A stretch of DNA of 64,000 nt from Micrococcus endophyticus (GTDB taxonomy: Bacteria; Actinomycetota; Actinomycetes; Actinomycetales; Micrococcaceae), in NCBI RefSeq assembly GCF_014205115.1, contig NZ_JACHMW010000001.1, positions 2,418,001 to 2,482,000 on the forward strand, in the 5' to 3' direction. Below the pieces are notes generated by a model. It worked only from the letters and a program-made list of their open reading frames with translations. It was not told the origin of the DNA and did no database searches. Positions 1,934 through 31,507 of the stretch are shown here, piece by piece. A program made the position numbers and the translations under genes. Numbering within the stretch: position 1 is the stretch's first letter; each line of letters starts with the position of its first letter.

Positions 1934-4900
1934 ATGGCCACTGCAGATTCCGGAGACGTCCTGCCGCACCTGCGCACTGAGGCCATCCGCGCCGTCGTCG
2001 GGCCCACGAGCGCGGACCGCGGGTTCGCGATCGCCGCCTCCGGCGCCGTCGGCCGCCTGCGCTACGACGCGGCCACGGGCCGGCTCGCCGCCTCCGTGCA
2101 GGGCACCGCGCCGAGCCCCTACCGCGTGCAGGTGACGCTCCAGCAGGCCTTCGACGACGCCGACCCCGAGGGCGCCGCCGTGCGCATGGAGCCGGTGGGC
2201 GGGCGCTGCACCTGCCCCGTCGGCACGGACTGCAAGCACGTGGCCGCCGCCCTCTACCAGGTGGTCCGCCTCGACGCGGACCAGGCCCTGGACGACGCCC
2301 GTCGCAAGCTCGCCGAGATGGTCACCACCGCCGACGCGCTCCCCGCGCCCGCCGGCCCGGGCCACGACGACGGCGGCCCGCGCGGCTCCGGCTCGGGTGG
2401 CGCCGCCACGGGCCCGAAGCGCGCGTCGGGCGTCCCCGAGGCGCCCCACTCCGGCCTGGACTGGCGCCGTGTGATGGAGCCGCTGGCCGGACTCGATGGT
2501 CCGCGCCGGCTGGGCACGCCGCCCGCCCTGGCGATCGGCGTGGAGCTCGTGGCCGAGTCCTCCCGCAACGCGTTCCAGCAGTGGGGCCCGGCGCCCGCCG
2601 GCGAGGACCAGGTCCGCGAGGGCCGCCCCCTGTACGTGACCCTGAGACCCCTCAAGCGCGGCGCCAAGGGGACCTGGATCAAGGGCGGGCTGACCTGGAA
2701 GAACTTCCAGTTCGGCCGCGCCGAGTTCGCCCCCGCCCAGGAGCGGGCCATGCGCCTGATCTGGCGGCAGCTGCAGGCCGAGGACTCCTACCCCACGGAC
2801 GCCTGGTTCGGCCTGCACGCCTTCGACTCCCCACGGATCTGGCAGCTGCTCGCGGAGGCCCGCGAGGTCGGGGTGGAGCTCGTGCCGCTGGGGCTGCTCA
2901 CGGACGTGGTGCTGGAGGCGCCCGCCGCCGTCGGGCTGGACGTCACCCGCGCCCCCGACGGCGGCCTCGACGTCGCCCCGTCCCTGGACCCCGCCCCGCC
3001 CGGCCGGGGCCTGGCCGGCGTGCACGCGGTGGGCGGCATCGGCTTCTACCGCGTTGACCTCACGGACGAGCAGGCCGTGCTCCACCTGATCCCCGCCGAA
3101 CGGCCCGTCCCCGAGGCCGTCCAGCAGATCGTGCTCGCCGGCGGGCCCGTGCGCGTGCCCGCCGCGGACCGCGAGGAGTTCCTCGGCCGGATCTACCCGC
3201 GGCTGCGTGGCACCCTGCCCGTCACCAGCGGCGACGCCTCCGTGGAGCTGCCCGAGTTCGAGCCGCCCGTGCTGCGGCTGCGCGCCGACTTCCGGCCCGA
3301 CCACGAGCTCGTGCTGCGCTGGTCCTGGCTCTACTTCGACCCGCCCCGCGAACTCGGCCTCGACGCCGGCGGCGACCCCCTGCGGGACACCCGGCACGAG
3401 GCGGAGGTGCTGCGCGCCGTCGCTGAGCTCTGGCCGCGCGCCGGCCGCGCCGAGGAACAGGTCCTCGAGGGCGTGGGCGCCGCCCGGTTCTCCGAGCAGG
3501 TGCTGCCGCTGCTGCAGCGCGCCGACCACGTGCGCGTGGACGTCACCGGCGACCGCCCCGACTACCGCGAGCTGAAGGCCGCCCCACGCATCGAGGTCGG
3601 CACGAAGGCCACACAGAACGACTGGTTCGACCTGGGCGTGCAGGTCTCCGTGGACGGGCACGTGCTGCCGTTCGTGGAGCTGTTCACCGCGCTCGTGCAG
3701 GGCAAGACCACGCTCATCCTCGCCGACGGCTCCTACCTCGGCCTCGACCACCCCGCCTTCGACCGGCTGCGCGCCCTGCTCTCCGAGGCCGCCACCCTGC
3801 AGGAGTGGACCCCGGAGCACACCCCCGTCTCACGGCACCAGGTGGGCTTCTGGGAGGACCTCAAGGAGCTCGCGGACGAGGTGGACGAGGACCCGGAGTG
3901 GACCGCCGCCGTCGGGCGTCTGGCCGCCGTCGAGCGCCTCCCCGAGGCCCCGCGCCCCGCCGGCCTGAAGGCCGACCTGCGCCCCTACCAGGAGGACGGG
4001 CTGCGCTGGCTGGCCTTCCTGTGGGAGCAGGACCTCGGCGGGATCCTGGCCGACGACATGGGCCTGGGCAAGACCGTCCAGACCCTCGCGCTCTTCGCCC
4101 ACGCACGCCAGGCCCGGCCCGAGCGGCCGCCGTTCCTCGTGGTCGCGCCGAGCTCCGTGGTGTCCGTGTGGGCGGCCGAGGCCGAGAAGTTCACCCCGGA
4201 CCTCGACGTGCGCGTCCTGGACACCACCGTCCGCAAGCGCGGCACCGCCGTGGCGGACGAGGTGGCGGGGGCGGACGTGGTGGTCACCAGCTACACGCTC
4301 CTGAGGATCGACGCCGGCCAGTACGGCGGACTCGACTGGGGCGGGGTGGTCTTCGACGAGGCCCAGTTCCTGAAGAACCGCGCCGCGAAGGTGCACACGG
4401 TGGCCCGCGACCTGCGCGCCCCCTTCCGGCTGGCCATCACCGGCACGCCGATGGAGAACTCCCTCAGCGACCTGTGGGCGCTGCTGGGCGTCGTCGTGCC
4501 GGGCCTGTTCCCGAGCCACCGCCGGTTCCGCGAGACCTACGTGACCCCCATCGAGACCGGGGAGGACCCCGAGCGGATGGCGGCCCTGCGCCGCCGCGTG
4601 CGCCCCTTCATGCTGCGCCGCTCCAAGGAGCTCGTGGCGAAGGACCTGCCGCCCAAGCAGGAGCAGATCCTCCAGGTGGAGCTCGAGCCGGCCCACCGCA
4701 AGCTCTACGACCGTGTGCTCCAGCGCGAGCGCCGCAAGGTGTTGGGGCTGCTCGGGGACATGGACGGCAACCGGTTCACCATCTTCAAGTCGCTCACGTT
4801 GCTGCGGATGCTGGCGCTGGCGCCGCAGATCGTCGACGACCAGTACGCCTCCGTGCCCAGCTCCAAGCTCGAGCGCTTCCTCGACGACCTCACCGAGGTG

Positions 4901-5386
4901 ATCGCCGAGGGGCACCGGGTGATCGTGTTCAGCCAGTTCACCAGCTTCCTGCGGGTCATCGCCGAGGAGCTGGACCACCTGGAGGTGGACCACGCGTACC
5001 TCGACGGGTCCACGCGCGGGCGCGCCGAGGTGATCCGCGGCTTCCGCGAGGGCGAGGCGCCGGTGTTCCTGATCTCCCTGAAGGCGGGCGGCTTCGGCCT
5101 GACCCTGACCGAGGCGGACTACGTGTTCCTCATGGATCCGTGGTGGAACCCCGCCGCGGAGGCGCAGGCCGTGGACCGGGCGCACCGGATCGGGCAGGAG
5201 CGGACCGTGATGGTCTACCGGCTCGTGTCCGAGGGGACGATCGAGGAGAAGGTGCTCGAGCTGCAGCGGCGCAAGGCCGAGCTGTTCGGCGCGCTCATGG
5301 ACGAGTCCGACGACTCCGGCGCCGGCGCCTTCACCGACTCCCTCACCGCCGAGGACATCCGGGAGCTGCTCGGCGCCGAGGAGTGA
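1934..5386 (+). CDS. SNF2-family DEAD/DEAH helicase with N-terminal SWIM zinc finger
   Basis: 1150 residues, the usual size for bacterial HepA/Snf2-type ATPases. A SWIM motif (CTCPVGTDCKH) sits near residue 91. Walker A (DDMGLGKT) is near 705, the DEAQ box near 806, the GTPMENSL motif III region follows, and the helicase C domain (VIVFSQF, DGSTRGRAEVI, AHRIGQERTV) runs from about 995 to the end. The frame is open 30 codons further upstream, but ATG 1934 begins the conserved-looking region, so I chose it. Likely a DNA- or nucleoprotein-remodelling translocase; its partner is unknown. All core motifs look intact. Confidence 0.92.
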   Translation: MATADSGDVLPHLRTEAIRAVVGPTSADRGFAIAASGAVGRLRYDAATGRLAASVQGTAPSPYRVQVTLQQAFDDADPEGAAVRMEPVGGRCTCPVGTDCKHVAAALYQVVRLDADQALDDARRKLAEMVTTADALPAPAGPGHDDGGPRGSGSGGAATGPKRASGVPEAPHSGLDWRRVMEPLAGLDGPRRLGTPPALAIGVELVAESSRNAFQQWGPAPAGEDQVREGRPLYVTLRPLKRGAKGTWIKGGLTWKNFQFGRAEFAPAQERAMRLIWRQLQAEDSYPTDAWFGLHAFDSPRIWQLLAEAREVGVELVPLGLLTDVVLEAPAAVGLDVTRAPDGGLDVAPSLDPAPPGRGLAGVHAVGGIGFYRVDLTDEQAVLHLIPAERPVPEAVQQIVLAGGPVRVPAADREEFLGRIYPRLRGTLPVTSGDASVELPEFEPPVLRLRADFRPDHELVLRWSWLYFDPPRELGLDAGGDPLRDTRHEAEVLRAVAELWPRAGRAEEQVLEGVGAARFSEQVLPLLQRADHVRVDVTGDRPDYRELKAAPRIEVGTKATQNDWFDLGVQVSVDGHVLPFVELFTALVQGKTTLILADGSYLGLDHPAFDRLRALLSEAATLQEWTPEHTPVSRHQVGFWEDLKELADEVDEDPEWTAAVGRLAAVERLPEAPRPAGLKADLRPYQEDGLRWLAFLWEQDLGGILADDMGLGKTVQTLALFAHARQARPERPPFLVVAPSSVVSVWAAEAEKFTPDLDVRVLDTTVRKRGTAVADEVAGADVVVTSYTLLRIDAGQYGGLDWGGVVFDEAQFLKNRAAKVHTVARDLRAPFRLAITGTPMENSLSDLWALLGVVVPGLFPSHRRFRETYVTPIETGEDPERMAALRRRVRPFMLRRSKELVAKDLPPKQEQILQVELEPAHRKLYDRVLQRERRKVLGLLGDMDGNRFTIFKSLTLLRMLALAPQIVDDQYASVPSSKLERFLDDLTEVIAEGHRVIVFSQFTSFLRVIAEELDHLEVDHAYLDGSTRGRAEVIRGFREGEAPVFLISLKAGGFGLTLTEADYVFLMDPWWNPAAEAQAVDRAHRIGQERTVMVYRLVSEGTIEEKVLELQRRKAELFGALMDESDDSGAGAFTDSLTAEDIRELLGAEE

Positions 5387-5400
5387 GGGCCCCTCCGGGC

Positions 5401-5490
5401 GGCGCTTTCGTGCGGGAAACGGGAGGCTTCGGCGGCGCTTTCGTGCGGGAAACGGGAGGCTTGCTCCCCGTCTCCCGCACGAAAGGCGCG
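5401..5490. repeat. Tandem plus inverted 30-bp repeat unit forming a hairpin
   Basis: Two direct copies of a unit containing GCGCTTTCGTGCGGGAAACG start at 5401 and 5434 (33-bp period). A third copy is inverted at 5467-5489. Units 2 and 3 can form a stem of about 22 bp with a ~10-nt loop. The block lies 14 bp after the helicase stop and just before the aminotransferase start. It may act as a terminator, though no T-run follows. Confidence 0.85.
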
Positions 5491-5514
5491 TGGTGGCGTG
5501 GGTAGCCTCGGCCC

Positions 5515-6915
5515 ATGGACCCGCAGCCCCGCCTCGACCCCGGCACCCACCACGACGTCGCCGCCCCCGCCTCGCCCGTCGCCGACGCCGCGCCTGAGGA
5601 CCAGGCCGCGCCGGGAGATCCGGCCTCGCCGGTCGCCCCCGCCTTCGCCCCGTCCGCCCGCTCCCAGGTCCCGCCGTTCACGGTGATGACCATCCTCGGC
5701 CGGGTCGCCGAGCTGCGCGCCGCCGGCCGCGACGTCATCAGCCTCTGCGCCGGGGAGCCGGGCGGGGGCGCCCCGCCCACCGTGAGCGCGGCCGCGGCCG
5801 AGGTCCACGCCTCCGGCACGCCGCTCACCTACACCCCCGCACTGGGCCTGCCGGAGCTGCGGGCCGCCGTCGCCGGTCACTACCGACGCTGGTACGGGAT
5901 CGACGTGCGCCCCGAGCAGGTGGCGATCACCACCGGCTCCTCGGGCGCGTTCATGCTCGGCTTCCTCGCGGCGTTCTCCCCGGGCGACCGCGTGGTGCTG
6001 CCGCGCCCCGGCTACCCGGCGTACCGCAACATCCTGGCCGCGCTCGGGGTGGAGGTGGTGGACGTGGACGTCGACGCCGGCACCCGCTACCAGCCCACGG
6101 TCGCCCACCTGGAGGCGGCGCTCGCGGAGGGCCCGGTCGCGGGGCTCGTGCTCGCCTCCCCGGCCAATCCCACGGGCACGATGGTCAGCGCCGACGAGCT
6201 CGCCGCCCTCGCGTCCTGGTGCGAGGCGCACGGGGTACGGCTGGTCTCGGACGAGATCTACCACGGGATCGTGCACCCGCGGTCGGGCGACGACGACGGC
6301 GGCCCGGCGGGTGGCGGGGCGGCGGGCGGTGCGCCGGGTGCGGAAGGCTCCCGCTTCCCGCACGAAAGCGTGGGGGCGTGCGCGTGGGCGACCTCCCGCA
6401 CCGCGATGGTGATCAGCTCGTTCTCCAAGTACTGGGGCATGCCCGGCTGGCGGCTGGGCTGGATGCTCCTGCCGGACGACCTCGCCACCACGGTCGACGG
6501 CCTCGCCGGCTCGGTCGCCCTGTGCCCGCCCGCCGCGGCCCAGGAGGCGGCCGTCCACGCGTTCAGCGAGGAGTCCTACGCGTTCTGCGAGGAGCAGGCA
6601 GCCGGCTTCACGGCGACGCGCGGCGTCGTGCTGGCCGCCCTGCCCCGGCTCGGCTGGGCCGACGCCGCCCCCGCCGACGGCGCCTTCTACCTGTGGGCCC
6701 GCCTCGCCCCGGGCATGCTGGCGGAGTTCGGCAGCGCCGTCGGCTACTGCGCGGCCCTGCTGGAGGAGGCCGGCGTCGCGCTGACCCCGGGCGACGACTT
6801 CGACGCCGTCCACGGGCCCGAGTTCGTCCGCCTCTCCTTCGCCGCCGGCCCGGACGCCGTCCACGAGGCGCTCGAGCGGATCGTCGCCTGGCACGCGGCG
6901 CGCGGCCTGGCCTGA
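5515..6915 (+). CDS. PLP-dependent class I/II aminotransferase
   Basis: 466 residues. Fold type I aminotransferase of the aspartate-aminotransferase-like group: TYTPALGLPELRAA, the ASPANPTGT substrate/PLP loop, VSDEIYHGI (PLP-binding Asp and Tyr) and the Schiff-base lysine in SSFSKYWGMPGWR at about residue 305. A 45-residue Ala/Pro-rich extension precedes the domain. Between the DEIYHGIVHP strand and the SSFSKYW strand lies a Gly/Ala-rich insert of about 30 residues containing a repeat-derived peptide (see 6347-6370). Catalytic residues are intact, so the enzyme is probably active; the amino acid substrate is not deducible. Confidence 0.88.
   Translation: MDPQPRLDPGTHHDVAAPASPVADAAPEDQAAPGDPASPVAPAFAPSARSQVPPFTVMTILGRVAELRAAGRDVISLCAGEPGGGAPPTVSAAAAEVHASGTPLTYTPALGLPELRAAVAGHYRRWYGIDVRPEQVAITTGSSGAFMLGFLAAFSPGDRVVLPRPGYPAYRNILAALGVEVVDVDVDAGTRYQPTVAHLEAALAEGPVAGLVLASPANPTGTMVSADELAALASWCEAHGVRLVSDEIYHGIVHPRSGDDDGGPAGGGAAGGAPGAEGSRFPHESVGACAWATSRTAMVISSFSKYWGMPGWRLGWMLLPDDLATTVDGLAGSVALCPPAAAQEAAVHAFSEESYAFCEEQAAGFTATRGVVLAALPRLGWADAAPADGAFYLWARLAPGMLAEFGSAVGYCAALLEEAGVALTPGDDFDAVHGPEFVRLSFAAGPDAVHEALERIVAWHAARGLA
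6347..6370 (-). repeat. In-gene copy of the 5.4-kb repeat unit
   Basis: A near-exact inverted copy of the repeat core found at 5401-5490. It contains CTTCCCGCACGAAAGCG and sits inside the aminotransferase coding sequence, where it is translated in frame as roughly GSRFPHES. It falls in a low-complexity insert between two conserved strands. Confidence 0.8.
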
Positions 6916-23837: not shown

Positions 23838-24410
23838 GTGGTTGGACAGACTGTGGCCTATGTGCGGACCAGCTCGGCCGACCAGAACCTGGACCGTCAG
23901 CTCGAGGCGGTGGGGGAGTGCGACCGCATCTTCCAGGACAAGATCTCCGGCAGCTCGAGGGCCAAGCGCGCCGGGTTGGCGGAGCTGATGACCTACGTGC
24001 GGGAGGGGGACCTGGTGAAGGTCGCCTCCATGGACCGCCTCGGCCGCGACACTCGGGACCTCTATGCGATCGTGGACGAGCTCACCGCCAAGGGGTGTGC
24101 GGTGCAGTTCGTGTCCGAGCGGATCACCGTGGACAAGTCGGGCACCTCCCCGGTGGACGGGCTGATGTTGGGGATTCTGGCGGCGTTCGCTGAGTTCGAG
24201 CGCCGGCGGATCAAGGAGCGCCAGGCCGAGGGCATCGCCCTAGCCAAGGCCCGCGGCAAGTACGTGCAGGTCCCGAAGCTCTCGGACACCGACGTGGAGC
24301 AGGCGCGCGTGATGATCGAGATGGGGATCCCGAAGGCCGAAGTGGCGCGCACGTTCGGGGTGAGCCGGCAGACCCTGTACACCTCGTTGCGCAGGCAAGC
24401 CTCAGACTGA
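23838..24410 (+). CDS. Serine recombinase (Tn3-type resolvase/invertase)
   Basis: 190 residues. Catalytic serine in VAYVRTSSADQNLDRQL near residue 12; conserved arginines in KVASMDRLGRDTRDL; GLMLGILAAFAEFERRRIKER at the E-helix; C-terminal helix-turn-helix MGIPKAEVARTFGVSRQTLY. Full length for small resolvases. No Tn3 transposase lies nearby, so it is an orphan from a decayed transposon or plasmid. Start GTG 23838. Confidence 0.88.
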   Translation: MVGQTVAYVRTSSADQNLDRQLEAVGECDRIFQDKISGSSRAKRAGLAELMTYVREGDLVKVASMDRLGRDTRDLYAIVDELTAKGCAVQFVSERITVDKSGTSPVDGLMLGILAAFAEFERRRIKERQAEGIALAKARGKYVQVPKLSDTDVEQARVMIEMGIPKAEVARTFGVSRQTLYTSLRRQASD

Positions 24411-26805: not shown

Positions 26806-27285
26806 TCACGTCAGGCCCAGGAAGCGCCGCAGCTCGTCGGCGCCCGTGATCCGCACCGGGTCGTCGCCGCGCACGAACTCGTCGGGGCGCAGCTCGAAGA
26901 AGACGTCGGTGGTCGGCATCCCGCGGCGCTCGGCCTGGCCACGGCCGGTCTCCATGCGGCGCGACCCGGCGACGTCGGCGCCGTTCATCGCCTGCACGCC
27001 GACGACCCGCCCGCCCCGGCGGACCACCAGCTCGATGCTCGCGCCGCCGCCCTGGGTGCGGGCCAGCGTGGAGGCGAAGAACCGCAAGTAGTTCGCCGGG
27101 ATCTCCTCCGCGGGGGCGTCCGTCCACGGGAAGGCGAACGGCGTCCAGGACGGGTCGTGGATCCCGCCGGCGACGACGTCGAGCACCTCCGGGACGTCCG
27201 CCTCGCGCAGGGCGGTCATCCGCAGGTCGCCGGACTCCACCACGAGGCCGGAGGGCGGCCAGATCTCCTCCAGGGTGCCGGTCAT
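26806..27285 (-). CDS. GNAT-family protein with internal deletion
   Basis: 159 residues from ATG 27285. The N-terminal half is normal for RimJ/RimL-like GNAT proteins (LRMTALREADVPEVLDVVAG, TLARTQGGGASIELVVRRGG, VVGVQAMNGADV). After SRRMETG, where the acetyl-CoA pyrophosphate loop should follow, the sequence jumps to MPTTDVFFELRPDEFVRGDD, the expected C-terminal end. About 80-90 residues including the whole CoA-binding motif are missing, in frame. The product is probably inactive as an acetyltransferase. Confidence 0.7.
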   Translation of the reverse strand: MTGTLEEIWPPSGLVVESGDLRMTALREADVPEVLDVVAGGIHDPSWTPFAFPWTDAPAEEIPANYLRFFASTLARTQGGGASIELVVRRGGRVVGVQAMNGADVAGSRRMETGRGQAERRGMPTTDVFFELRPDEFVRGDDPVRITGADELRRFLGLT

Positions 27286-27380
27286 GACGGGAGGCTGCCG
27301 GTGCTGGCGGGCCGCCGCCCCGTCAGCGCCCGCTAATCCCGCCCACGCCCGCTCTTGCCGCCGCTGATACGGTGGTCCGC

Positions 27381-27428
27381 ATGTCATACAGAGGCATCGC
27401 ATCGATGAGGCTCCGCTCCGCCCGCTGA
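27381..27428 (+). CDS. Leader peptide MSYRGIASMRLRSAR upstream of ABC-F gene
   Basis: A 15-codon frame with its own stop lies 104 bp before the ABC-F start. It ends in SMRLR-SAR. The ErmD-type leader carries the same SMRLR, whose Arg-x-Arg element makes ribosomes stall when macrolides are bound. The downstream gene is an antibiotic-resistance-type ABC-F, the kind commonly controlled by such leaders. The transcription start appears close to the ATG, and no strong Shine-Dalgarno is visible. Drug specificity is inferred from the motif only. Confidence 0.65.
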   Translation: MSYRGIASMRLRSAR

Positions 27429-27507
27429 CGGCGGCGGCGACTCCTTCTCCCTGACTCCGCTCGCCGTCCTCGCATCCCGCCGGGCGGCCCCCTTCGTGCT
27501 GCCCGGC
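27419..27507 (+). promoter_or_regulatory. Possible attenuator between leader peptide and ABC-F gene
   Basis: GCCGGGC (27479-27485) pairs with GCCCGGC (27501-27507), just before the ABC-F start region. The same 5' strand (CGGGCG, 27481-27486) can instead pair with CGCCCG (27419-27424), which covers the last codons of the leader. A ribosome stalled on RLR would change which pairing forms. Consistent with ribosome-mediated attenuation; not proven. Confidence 0.4.
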
Positions 27508-27531
27508 TCCATGACGAGCTGAGAGACCACG

Positions 27532-29187
27532 ATGACTCTGACCCCTCCCCACGCCACTGCCCTGCCGGCGGGCGCCTCCGCCCACATCCGAGCCGAGTGC
27601 ATCACGCTCACCCTCGGCGACCGCACCGTCCTGGACCAGGCGGACGTGACGGTCTCCGCCGGCTCCCGGCTGGCGATCGTCGGCGAGAACGGCCGCGGCA
27701 AGACCACCCTCCTCCACGTGCTGGCCGGCACGCTGGCGCCCGACTCGGGCACCGTGACCCGCGCCGGCACCCTCGCCCTCGTCGAGCAGGACCTCGACGC
27801 CGACGACGACCGCACGGTCGGCGACCTCATCCACGACGCCATCGGGGAGTCGCTCGCCGTCCTGGACCGTCTCGAGGCCGCCACCCGCGCGCTGGCCGAG
27901 GGCCGGCCGGGCGCGGACGACGACTACGCCCGCGCGCTCGAGACGGCCACCGCCCTCGAGGCGTGGGACGCGGAGCGGCGCATCGACGTCGCCCTGGAGG
28001 GGCTCTCCGCCTGCACGGACCGCACGCGCCCCCTGAACTCGCTGTCCGTCGGGCAGCGATATCGCGTCCGGCTGGCGGTCGTGCTCGGGTCGGCCGTGGA
28101 CCTGCTCCTGCTGGACGAGCCCACCAACCATCTCGACGCCGGGGCCCTGGAGCACCTGACCCGTGCCCTGCGGGAGCATCCGGGCGGCGTCGCGGTGGTC
28201 ACCCATGACCGCGCCCTGCTGAAGGACGTCGCCGAGACCTTCCTGGACCTGGACCCCACGTCCGACGGGCGCCCCCGGCAGTACGCGGGCGGCTACGCGG
28301 GGTGGGAGAAGGGTCGGCGCGCCGAGCGTGCCGCCTGGGAGCAGGCGCACGAGCAGCAGGTGGCCGAGCATGCGGCCCTCGCCGAGGCGGCCGAGGCGGC
28401 CCGCGGTCGCCTGCAGGACCGGTGGCGCCCGGACAAGGGCACCGGCAAGCACCAGCGGGCCACGCGGGCCGCGGGCGTGGTGCAGGCCTTCAACCGCCGG
28501 GTGCGGGACCTGGAGGCGCACGAGGTCACGGTGCCGGAGCCGCCCCGGGCACTGGCCTGGCCGGCGTCGTCCACCCGGGCCGCCCGCCCGCTGCTGAGCG
28601 CCGAGGGGGTCGACGTCGCCGGGCGCCTGCGCGGGCCGGTCTCGGCGGACCTCACGGGCGGCGACCGCCTGCTGCTCACCGGTCCCAACGGCGCCGGCAA
28701 GTCCACGCTGCTGCACGTCCTGGCCGGGCGCCTCGACCCCACGGCGGGCCGCGTCCTGCGGCACACGGGCGCGCGGATCGCCCTGCTCACCCAGGAGGCC
28801 CCCGCCTGGAACCCGCGGCACACAGCGCGCCAGGCGTTCGAGGTGCACCTGCACCGCCGGGGCCTCCTGGCGGACGACGACGGCGGGGCGCCGCCGCTCG
28901 CCTCGCTCGGGCTCCTGGAGCCCCGGAGCATGGACGCCCCCGTCGGCCGCCTGTCCCAGGGGCAGCAGCGGCGCCTCCACCTGGCCCTGTGCCTCGCCGA
29001 GCGGCCGGATCTGCTGATGCTCGACGAGCCCACCAACCACCTCTCCGCGACGCTCGTCGACGAGCTGACGGAGGCCCTCCGCGCGACCCGGTCGGCGGTG
29101 GTCGTGGCCACCCACGACCGGCAGATGCTCCGCGACCTCTCCGACTGGCCGCGGCTGGAGCTCACCGCCGAGGCGGTGGCCCGATGA
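27532..29187 (+). CDS. ABC-F ribosomal protection protein
   Basis: 551 residues, two ABC domains and no membrane segments. First Walker [12 protein letters not shown] near residue 51, signature [12 protein letters not shown] (variant of LSGGQ), Walker [13 protein letters not shown] near 195. A charged helical linker (about 255-330) corresponds to the arm that reaches the ribosome. Second Walker [12 protein letters not shown] near 384, LSQGQQRRL, Walker [13 protein letters not shown]. The GRGKTT and SVGQ variants recall TlrC/OleB/CarA-type resistance factors. Likely dislodges macrolide-type drugs from ribosomes. Its stop overlaps the start of an MFS remnant. Confidence 0.85.
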
Positions 29188-29940
29188 TGCCGACCGCCGC
29201 CCTGAAGCCGCTGTCCGCCTCGCTGCCCGCCGGCGTCATCGCCGACCGGGTGTCGAAGAAGCGGATCCTGGTGATCGTCCTCGCGGCGAACGCCGTGGCG
29301 GCCGGCACCGTCTCGGGGCTCGCCCTCGCCGGGGCGGCGCCGTACTGGCTCCTCGGGCTCTCGGCCCTGCTCATCGGGGCCTCGACGGCGTTCTTCTTCC
29401 CGGCCTACACGGCGCTGGTCCCGATGCTCGTCGACGAGGATCAGCTGATGGCCGTGCACGGCCTGGAGGGGGCGACGCGGCCCGTCGTCGGCCAGGCGCT
29501 GGCACCGGCCGTGGCCGGGGCTGTCATCGGCGCCGCGAGCCCGCCGGCCGGCGGCCTGCTGATCGCCCTCACCCTCGCCGCCGGTGCGGTCCTCGCCGCC
29601 CGACTTCCCGACGTCGGCGCTCGCCTCCCCGACGCGGCCGGCGGTCTACGGGGCGGTGCTGGCCGCCCTCGGCCTCGGCGGCCTGGTGGGCTCGCTGGTG
29701 GCCGGCGGAACGTCGGCGCCCCGGCGGTTCCTGCCCGCCATGGTGACCGCCTGGGCCCGCGCCTGCCTGCCGCTGGCCCTGCCCGCGTGGACGTCGAGCC
29801 CGTGGATCATCGGGGCCGGGCTGATGCTCTACGGCGCCGGCATCGGGGTGGGCATGGTGATCTGGGGGACCGCGCTCCAGACCCACGTGCCGCTGGTGCT
29901 GGCCGGGGTGCTGGCCGCGGCCGGGCAGCTGCGCTCCGAG
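29184..29940 (+). pseudogene. Degenerate MFS transporter
   Basis: From ATG 29184 the frame reads SLSASLPAGVIADRVSKKRI-like MFS sequence (the GVIADRVSKKR loop between helices 2 and 3), then STAFFFPAYTALVPMLVDED. Near 29600-29640 the coding frame shifts by one base to AVYGAVLAALGLGGLVGSLV and ends about 29940. The first helices and several central helices are missing. Both halves are typical drug-efflux MFS sequence. Its coupling with the ABC-F gene suggests they once formed one resistance operon. Confidence 0.7.
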
Positions 29941-30075: not shown

Positions 30076-30540
30076 TCACGCGGAGTCGGGGGAGTCCGGG
30101 CCTGCGTCGCCGTGAGCCTCGGACGATGGGCGTTTGGATGTGCGGTTATAGACAGATGACTCCCACTCCTGCCCACCGGGACTTCTCCACCACACCCGCT
30201 TATGCGAACCGGGTCTGACGTCATGGGGCGTCAACGGCGCGTTTCGGGTCGGGTGCCACTGCGCGGCCAGGTCCGGGCGGAGGTCTGCCAATGACAGCCC
30301 AGGCTGGGGGCGGGATCGTGCTGCTCCGGCGCGCGCTTTCCCGCAGTCCGGGCAGCCAAGGGTCTGACGTCGAGTTCGCTGCCCGACGACAGCCTCCCAT
30401 TCGGCACCGCAGAGACTGCAGAGCCACCACGCGGATGCGTTCCGCGCATTCGCCACGTCCGCCGGTGTCAGGCCGCCATTCTTTGATGGATGCCACGGCC
30501 GATCCTGCGCTCGGCGTCGGCTTTCTTCGCGGCGGATGCT
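30076..30540 (-). pseudogene. Zinc-ribbon/treble-clef repeat protein fragment
   Basis: Two copies of a WHPxxNxPLTPxDV...W repeat unit are visible: RPWHPSKNGGLTPADV with WWLCSLCGAEWEAVVGQRT and CPDCGKARAG, then AAQWHPTRNAPLTPHDV with VWWRSPGGQEWESSVYNRTS. The second unit has lost its cysteines (RSPGGQ where CxxGH is expected) and runs into a non-matching tail. The 5' end is cut by the IS3 remnant near 30490-30540. A decayed fragment of a zinc-ribbon (DUF4379-like) gene. Confidence 0.55.
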
Positions 30541-31507
30541 CGAGACGCCCACAGCGCTGATCGTGGACTACATCGACGAACACAAGCACGAGTTCGGTGT
30601 CGAGCCGATCTGCGCCACGCTGTCCGCGGCAGGCACACAGATCGCACCGAGCACGTACTACGCGGCCAAGACGCGCCCTCCTTCAGTGCGCAGCCTGCGC
30701 GATGAGCAGGTGCTCGTGGAAATCCGGGGGGTGCATGAGGCCAACTACGGGGTCTACGGGGCCCGGACGGTCCACGCGCAACTGCGGAGGGAGGGCCTGC
30801 AGGTGGCCAGGTGCACGGTGGAGCGGCTCATGCGAGCCGCAGGCCTGCGCGGGATCAGCCGCGCGAAGGGACCGAGGACCACGGTCCCAGGCCGCGGCCC
30901 GGATGAGCGTCAAGACCTGGTCCAGCGAGACTTCACCGCGGCGGCTCCGAACCAGCTGTGGGTCGCTGACATCACCTACTGCCGCACTTCCAGCGGATGG
31001 GTGTACGCCGCGTTCATCATCGACGTGTTCTCCCGACGGGTGCTGGGCTGGCAGCTGTCGAAGTCGTTGCGCACGGACCTGGCCCTGGACGCGTTGGAGA
31101 TGGCGTTCTGGACGCGTCAGCGCGCAGGCCAAGACGTGGCCGGGCTACGGCATCACAGCGATAAAGGAGTCCAGTACGTCGCCGTGCGATACACCCAGCG
31201 GCTCGCCCAGGCCGGCGCAGTCGCCTCAGTCGGCTCGACGGGGGACTCGTATGACAATGCCCTCGCGGAGGCGTTCAACTCGCTGTTCAAGGCGGAGCTG
31301 ATCCGGAACAAGGGGCCATTCAAGTCCATCGAGGACCTGGAGATCGCGGTCGCGGAGTACATCGACTGGTTCAACCATCGTCGTGTGCACGGCGAGATCA
31401 GGCTGGTCCCTCCGGTCGAGTTCGAGGACGTCTACCATCATGAGAACCCCGTGCCGGCGCCCGCCGGGACGGCACTTACGAGCCTCTAACAAACCCGGGG
31501 CGATTCA
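30490..31507 (+). mobile_element. 5'-truncated IS3-family element
   Basis: Only the last codons of orfA remain (ILRSASAFFAADARD), followed by a complete orfB. The right end is at about 31507, where GCCTCTAACAAACCCGGGGC precedes GATTCA and the aldolase fragment begins. The left end and most of orfA are missing, so the element cannot move on its own. Confidence 0.75.
30536..31489 (+). CDS. IS3-family transposase OrfB
   Basis: 317 residues. DDE integrase core intact: LWVADITYCR (first Asp), LRHHSDKGVQYVA (second Asp) and YDNALAEAFNSLFKAELI (Glu). N-terminal HTH-21-type region with YGVYGARTVHAQL. OrfB is normally translated as a frameshift fusion with OrfA, which is largely absent here, so expression is doubtful. 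Confidence 0.8.
   Translation: MLETPTALIVDYIDEHKHEFGVEPICATLSAAGTQIAPSTYYAAKTRPPSVRSLRDEQVLVEIRGVHEANYGVYGARTVHAQLRREGLQVARCTVERLMRAAGLRGISRAKGPRTTVPGRGPDERQDLVQRDFTAAAPNQLWVADITYCRTSSGWVYAAFIIDVFSRRVLGWQLSKSLRTDLALDALEMAFWTRQRAGQDVAGLRHHSDKGVQYVAVRYTQRLAQAGAVASVGSTGDSYDNALAEAFNSLFKAELIRNKGPFKSIEDLEIAVAEYIDWFNHRRVHGEIRLVPPVEFEDVYHHENPVPAPAGTALTSL

Follow-up and report, generated by a model that had tools for sequence, protein, structure and literature searches.

Known drug-sensing leader peptides

The drug-sensing leader peptides that have been studied experimentally are, in the literature surveyed, mostly those of Firmicutes. In the ErmD leader (ErmDL), the ribosome is arrested by erythromycin and telithromycin when Leu7 occupies the P site and Arg8 the A site; an Arg8-to-Trp change abolishes the telithromycin-dependent arrest, and the erythromycin arrest tolerates Ala in the motif (PMC8298421). 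Near-identical leaders (MTASMRLK, MTASMKLR and others) precede the Firmicutes ABC-F genes msr(A) and msr(C) (PMC4335068 Table 3). Among actinobacteria, the attenuators of Streptomyces ARE5 genes are induced by lincosamides, streptogramin A and pleuromutilins, and control of lmrC is transcriptional and involves a premature terminator (PMC8546547, PMC12421871). For the Erm(X) leader of corynebacteria, translational attenuation inducible by erythromycin has been proposed (PMC3350403), and experimental proof of this mechanism was not found in the literature searched.

The leader and ABC-F gene of Micrococcus endophyticus

The sequence analyzed here (the window) is a stretch of 64,000 nt from Micrococcus endophyticus. 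An open reading frame at positions 27381–27428 of the forward strand encodes the 15 residue peptide MSYRGIASMRLRSAR, followed by a stop codon. The translation, together with conserved leaders in relatives, bears out the first-pass annotation of a 15 residue leader that contains the string SMRLR. The leader ends in RLRSAR, thus a basic-X-basic motif is followed by three codons and the stop. The stop codon lies 103 nt from the start codon of an ABC-F ATPase gene. A further mini open reading frame just 5′ of the gene (MTS and a stop, 27510–27521) is present only in some relatives and was dropped from consideration.

A putative extended -10 element, TGaTACGGT, is found at positions 27365–27373 of the forward strand and is a candidate promoter not given in the first-pass annotation. 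Its hexamer ends 7 nt 5′ of the leader ATG. In 54 of 61 homologous attenuator loci, a TANNNT sequence precedes the leader start by exactly 7 nt; the background at any start codon of the same loci is 0.94%. Judging solely from the spacing of this -10-like box, the transcript probably starts at about the leader ATG and the leader is probably translated from this leaderless transcript with no Shine-Dalgarno site.

The ABC-F gene (27532–29187, forward strand) encodes a 551 aa presumed ribosome-protection protein whose closest named group is TlrC/CarA/OleB/SrmB. These proteins come from macrolide producers. The open reading frame is of full length and displays two Walker A and two DEPTNHL motifs, i.e. 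two intact ATP-binding domains. The protein scores 332.7 bits with the NCBIfam TlrC/CarA/OleB/SrmB model (curated cut-off 800) and 310 with the generic ribosomal-protection-like ABC-F model (cut-off 380). It is an ABC-F protein, but by the NCBIfam cut-off it falls outside of the named resistance family.

In relatives, the gene 3′ of the ABC-F gene encodes an MFS transporter. In the window it is a pseudogene (29184–29907, forward strand), and only residues 62–197 and 280–348 of the 410 residue plasmid protein are recognizable. An intact MFS gene follows the ABC-F gene, as an operon, in the Micrococcus plasmids pLMV7, pLMA7 and pCW.Ay. The ABC-F region of the window is flanked by a resolvase/invertase-like open reading frame (23838–24410) and an IS3-type transposase open reading frame (30536–31489), which suggests transfer or rearrangement of the locus by way of a mobile element. 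A resistance phenotype was sought for the plasmid relatives; the erythromycin resistance of Micrococcus A1 maps to pLMA1, which carries an rRNA methyltransferase gene, and not to the ABC-F-bearing pLMA7.

Overlapping RNA segments between leader and gene

Six segments of the forward strand, termed a to f, extend from the last leader codons to the ABC-F gene, and each can pair with the next. Segment a (27418–27425) consists of the last leader codons and would pair with b when free of the ribosome. Segment b (27427–27437, GACGGCGGCGG) begins inside the leader stop codon and pairs with a or c. Segment c (27462–27473, CGCCGUCCUCGC) pairs with b in the ON arrangement or with d in the OFF arrangement, and has one mismatch to d that is not found in relatives. 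Segment d (27479–27488, GCCGGGCGGC) pairs with c (OFF) or e (ON), and segment e (27498–27510, GCUGCCCGGCUCC) with d (ON) or f (OFF). Segment f (27515–27525, CGAGCUGAGAG) holds a weak Shine-Dalgarno stretch of the ABC-F gene and is the predicted ribosome-binding site. The set a:b, c:d and e:f therefore excludes the set b:c and d:e.

The two competing pairings that had been described earlier between leader and gene are both found. The 7-bp hairpin of GACGGCG (27427–27433) with CGCCGUC (27462–27468) is present in the minimum-free-energy fold, and its helix is paired in 99.6% of cells in 38 distinct homologous sequences. The last leader codons pair with GGCGGCGG, and relatives keep two registers of this helix, GCCGC-UGACG-GCGGC and CGCGCC-UGAC-GGCGCG. 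None of 300 shuffled partners is as stable as the real ones. In addition there is a stronger hairpin not given in the first-pass annotation, 27479–27488 with 27498–27507, which is a putative ribosome-binding-site hairpin.

In the 38 distinct sequences, b:c and d:e together are 98.8% paired and show three doubly changed pairs, which occur in d:e, and 11 further pair types; this was reached in none of 500 shuffles, although the counting alignment was fitted to the b:c and d:e structure and thus favors those helices, and the shuffles ignore relatedness. The c:d helix also pairs in nearly all homologous sequences. The mean summed helix energies, which are crude sums, are -36.9 kcal/mol for the OFF arrangement (a:b, c:d, e:f) and -30.3 kcal/mol for the ON arrangement (b:c, d:e). 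The case rests on this comparative evidence; the fold of the leader region alone has a modest z-score in the window (z = -2.0). A comparison of the leader region with Rfam gave nothing credible at E-values up to 5.

Conservation of the leader

Relatives were found by protein search among known relatives and 395 genomes of the class, and their upstream regions were then read. The closest records are the plasmids pLMV7, pLMA7 and pCW.Ay, which are about 83% identical. The plasmid leaders are MYRGIASMKLRSAR and a stop, and differ from the window leader by one codon fewer and one Arg/Lys change; the rest of the changes are synonymous. Further leaders before related ABC-F genes are MYSGIASMKLRSAR, MYLGIASMKLWDRR, MQGIASIKLWTRR, MLGIASMKLWARR, MHSGTASKKLWTRR, MFRSATMKPWTRR, MARGIWSQKVRSAR, MMYTGIASMRLRSCR and MLTASMRLRFRA, plus others.

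In all of the 38 distinct ABC-F leaders, K/R, L/P/V/I and R/W are encoded by codons six to four counted back from the stop, with exactly three codons between the motif and the stop. These 38 are the distinct covariance-model matches before ABC-F genes; the peptide was not used as a filter, although the model includes the motif positions and this causes some bias. The matches score 49–114 bits over 126 positions. The motif is RLR in eight sequences, KVR in six, KLW and KPW in five each, KLR in four, RPW and RIR in three each, and KIR and RPR in two each. Trp is thus the third motif residue in 13 of the 38. Each motif position uses several codons, and the three residues after the motif are variable. 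Lack of conservation before homologous ABC-F genes had been named in the first-pass annotation as grounds for abandoning its proposal; the leader is instead conserved in many genera, with synonymous variation in the motif codons.

Relationship to known attenuators

The leader had been termed ErmD-like. This holds for the SMRLR string, which is common to the two leaders, but the rest of the peptide geometry, the start context and the RNA are of the Erm(X) type. ErmD was therefore rejected as the closest relative, as it has only the five residue motif in common with the window leader. From the sequence comparison, the Erm(X) attenuator of corynebacteria is the known system closest to that of the window. 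The Erm(X) leader of pNG2 (MLISGTAFLRLRTNR and a stop) also has 15 residues and a basic motif followed by three codons and the stop (RLRTNR in Erm(X), RLRSAR in the window). It likewise displays a -10-like box 7 nt before the ATG, TATAAT in erm(X) and TACGGT in the window, and the same chain of overlapping RNA segments. A covariance model built from the ABC-F leaders alone finds the erm(X) leader with 39.4 bits (E-value = 1.4e-8). Unlike the window attenuator, that of Erm(X) controls an rRNA methyltransferase and has a UAA stop, and identity is far lower outside of d and e.

The ErmD/ErmK leader (MTHSMRLRFPTLNQ) displays SMRLR with the Arg-X-Arg arrest motif, but the N-terminus and the tail differ from those of the window leader. 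In addition, erm(K) is controlled by transcriptional attenuation with a terminator, whereas no Rho-independent terminator was found between leader and gene in the window (27250–27620 searched). The Mef(A)/Mef(E), msr(A) and msr(C) leaders (MTASMRLR, MTASMRLK, MTASMKLRFELLNNN) carry an ASMRLR/ASMKLR sensor as in the window, and the SMRLR string is common to MefAL, ErmDL and the window leader. As in the window, msr(A) and msr(C) are ABC-F genes, and the mef/msr gene pair resembles the ABC-F and MFS gene order of the window's relatives. However mef(E) is a Firmicutes gene whose leader has a Shine-Dalgarno site and which carries a Rho-independent terminator, and by inspection the Mef/msr RNA layout is unrelated to that of the window.

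Actinobacterial ABC-F genes under ribosome-mediated attenuation, as proposed here for the window gene, are found in Streptomyces, i.e. LmrC, Are5sc and TiaA (PMC8546547, PMC12421871), but these are ARE5 proteins with other uORFs (MLV, MVGDDDISG). MsrDL (MYLIFM and a stop) also precedes an ABC-F gene, but it is a hydrophobic leader that stalls at the stop codon. The combination of an SMRLR-type sensor with an ABC-F gene is thus not new in itself; what is new is the actinobacterial form and its RNA. A description of the shared RNA architecture was not found in the literature searched, which mostly excluded subscription papers.

Proposed mode of action

Three features are seen directly in the sequences: the leader is conserved, its basic motif keeps a constant spacing to the stop, and the helices are conserved and exclude each other. 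From these we infer a stall, a drug that causes it, a level of control and a resistance function, and we consider it likely that an Erm(X)-type drug-inducible ribosome-stalling attenuator controls the ABC-F ribosome-protection gene, with control most likely at translation. A macrolide-sensing attenuator, as first suggested, is still the best reading of the conserved leader, with its ErmD-like label only partly right.

In the proposed switch, the ribosome would run through the leader when no drug is present; a:b, c:d and e:f would form, and the ribosome-binding site of the ABC-F gene would be hidden. A macrolide in the exit tunnel would stall the ribosome at Leu11 (codon 11, 27411–27413) and Arg12, the former in the P site and the latter in the A site; these codons are predicted by analogy with ErmDL. 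The stalled ribosome would cover the RNA to about position 27427, which is the 5′ edge of b, and would thereby block a. Pairing of b:c and then d:e would follow, with f released and the ribosome-binding site exposed. A ribosome that has reached the stop codon would instead sit on b as well as a, and c:d and e:f would form. Thus opposite outcomes are predicted from the geometry for a stalled and a finishing ribosome.

An unlikely alternative is transcriptional attenuation, in which the d:e (or c:d) hairpin ends transcription early and a drug-stalled ribosome allows read-through. This mode is known for mef/msrD, mef(E), erm(K) and lmrC, the d:e helix is very stable (about -20 kcal/mol on average), and GC-rich actinobacteria may use terminators that lack U-runs. 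However no terminator-like site is found in 27250–27620, and there is no U-run after d:e, with at most three U in the next ten bases in any of the 38 sequences. Translational control is preferred for these reasons. In addition, a stall just before b favors b:c and hence d:e, so a terminator at d:e would turn the gene off in the presence of the drug.

A macrolide is the probable inducer of the window gene. It seems improbable that the drug or drugs sensed are instead a lincosamide, a streptogramin, a ketolide, or several of these, although related attenuators precede lnu and LmrA-like pump genes (see below) and those of Streptomyces ARE5 genes answer to lincosamides, streptogramin A and pleuromutilins. 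In relatives, Trp also replaces Arg at the A-site position, a change that abolishes telithromycin arrest in ErmDL. Against this, the RLR motif of the window is that of the erythromycin-responsive ErmDL and mef leaders, and the closest named ABC-F group is from macrolide producers.

The window copy differs from its relatives in that the order of the summed helix energies is reversed, with -28.3 kcal/mol for OFF and -32.6 kcal/mol for ON. This is due to the one mismatch in c, where the window has CCUCGC and relatives have CCUGGC or CCCGGU. The c:d energy is -9.3 kcal/mol in the window and -15.7 kcal/mol in the plasmid relative. When the full-length window RNA was folded at equilibrium, in the presence or absence of a stalled ribosome, the folds alone did not display release of the binding site. 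Hence either the window copy is leaky, or it is important in which order the helices form as the RNA is transcribed. These models suggest that the window attenuator may be leaky or constitutive. That the mismatch disables it outright, with the leader conserved and the ABC-F gene expressed constitutively, is rather doubtful. The weak c:d helix is in keeping with such a loss, as is the MFS partner gene that is already a pseudogene, but nothing is lost from the ABC-F open reading frame, the leader motif or the b:c, d:e and e:f helices, and the helices that remain may be enough while the RNA is being transcribed.

Lastly, a chance small open reading frame with chance hairpins is scarcely credible: short open reading frames and hairpins are frequent in GC-rich DNA and the z-score of the fold alone is -2.0, but the motif, stop position, start-codon spacing and paired changes are all kept across many genera, and a chance origin is, on these comparative data, already refuted.

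Evolution of the leaders and the Arg/Trp variants

In a tree of 66 ABC-F proteins, those with the window-type leader form one clade (support 100, 41 of 42 rows). Other lineages of the tree have short hydrophobic leaders that end in YFL, FFL or LYL before the stop, and one change on the tree separates the basic-motif leaders from the hydrophobic ones. Leaders of the sister ABC-F lineages, such as MHLYFL, MQYLFFL and MHLPLYL (each followed by a stop), were noted at 23 loci and recall MsrDL, but the RNA differs. These leaders also have a TANNNT box 5–8 nt before the start.

Within the clade there have been eight or more changes between Arg and Trp at the third motif residue, as counted on a quick tree with many weak forks. 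By analogy with the effect of the Arg8-to-Trp change in ErmDL, the natural Arg and Trp variants may differ in the drugs sensed. They represent a ready series for the study of how the A-site residue sets drug selectivity.

Attenuators of this type before other resistance genes

A covariance-model search covered 395 genomes of the class, 245 of the window's family and 251 of another family with large genomes. Of 63 classified places, 32 are before ABC-F genes, 15 before erm, eight before MFS genes closest to Lmr(A), four before another DHA2-type MFS gene, two before lnu and two elsewhere; gene classes were assigned by similarity, the drugs are inferred from gene names, and matches under about 40 bits may reflect the shared 3′ half only. 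Nearly all of the model matches that are not before ABC-F genes stand before genes for resistance to ribosome-targeting drugs.

The leader peptide often varies with the gene controlled. Leaders before erm include MCAAIRLRSAR, MLFYGTASLRLRSR and MCCLGIASMRLRRH, and an example before LmrA-type genes is MSGSSAAACAAVTRTLR. The two leaders before lnu are MCAIAVTDLRLS and MCAIAVTERRPS, each followed by a stop. The chances appear about even that these loci represent one modular, probably leaderless chassis that would be placed ahead of five or more kinds of resistance gene (ABC-F, erm, LmrA-type MFS, another DHA2-type MFS and lnu), with the sensor peptide swapped to suit. In the ABC-F branch, the Arg/Trp toggling may tune the drugs sensed, e.g. 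whether ketolides are sensed along with macrolides.

According to a survey of erm regions, the uORFs and palindromes of the different erm subfamilies have independent origins (PMC11264731). One RNA architecture recurs here ahead of several kinds of actinobacterial resistance gene, both chromosomal and plasmid-borne; among the carriers is a plasmid of Prescottella equi, a pathogen of horses, with erm(46) and an ABC-F gene. The architecture would aid in prediction of inducible resistance from sequence in the genera that carry it.

On the conjugative plasmid of P. equi (NZ_CP095480), the ABC-F gene (2420–4114) and erm(46) (5323–6132) each have their own attenuator. The ABC-F gene is preceded by the leader MYASTGFMKPWSLR and erm(46) by MGNTNIAVTEFRRF, each followed by a stop.

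The leaders of the eight LmrA-like pump genes are rich in alanine and end in AVTRTLR, AVTRALR or similar sequences. Before the DHA2-type MFS pump (loci L217 and L219, also L215 and L218; about positions 1426–1617), the leader is MPESKDVAA, or MPASDRIRRP or MPESDRVCRP, with a stop after each. No basic motif is present in the DHA2-pump leader, which suggests that a different drug may be sensed.
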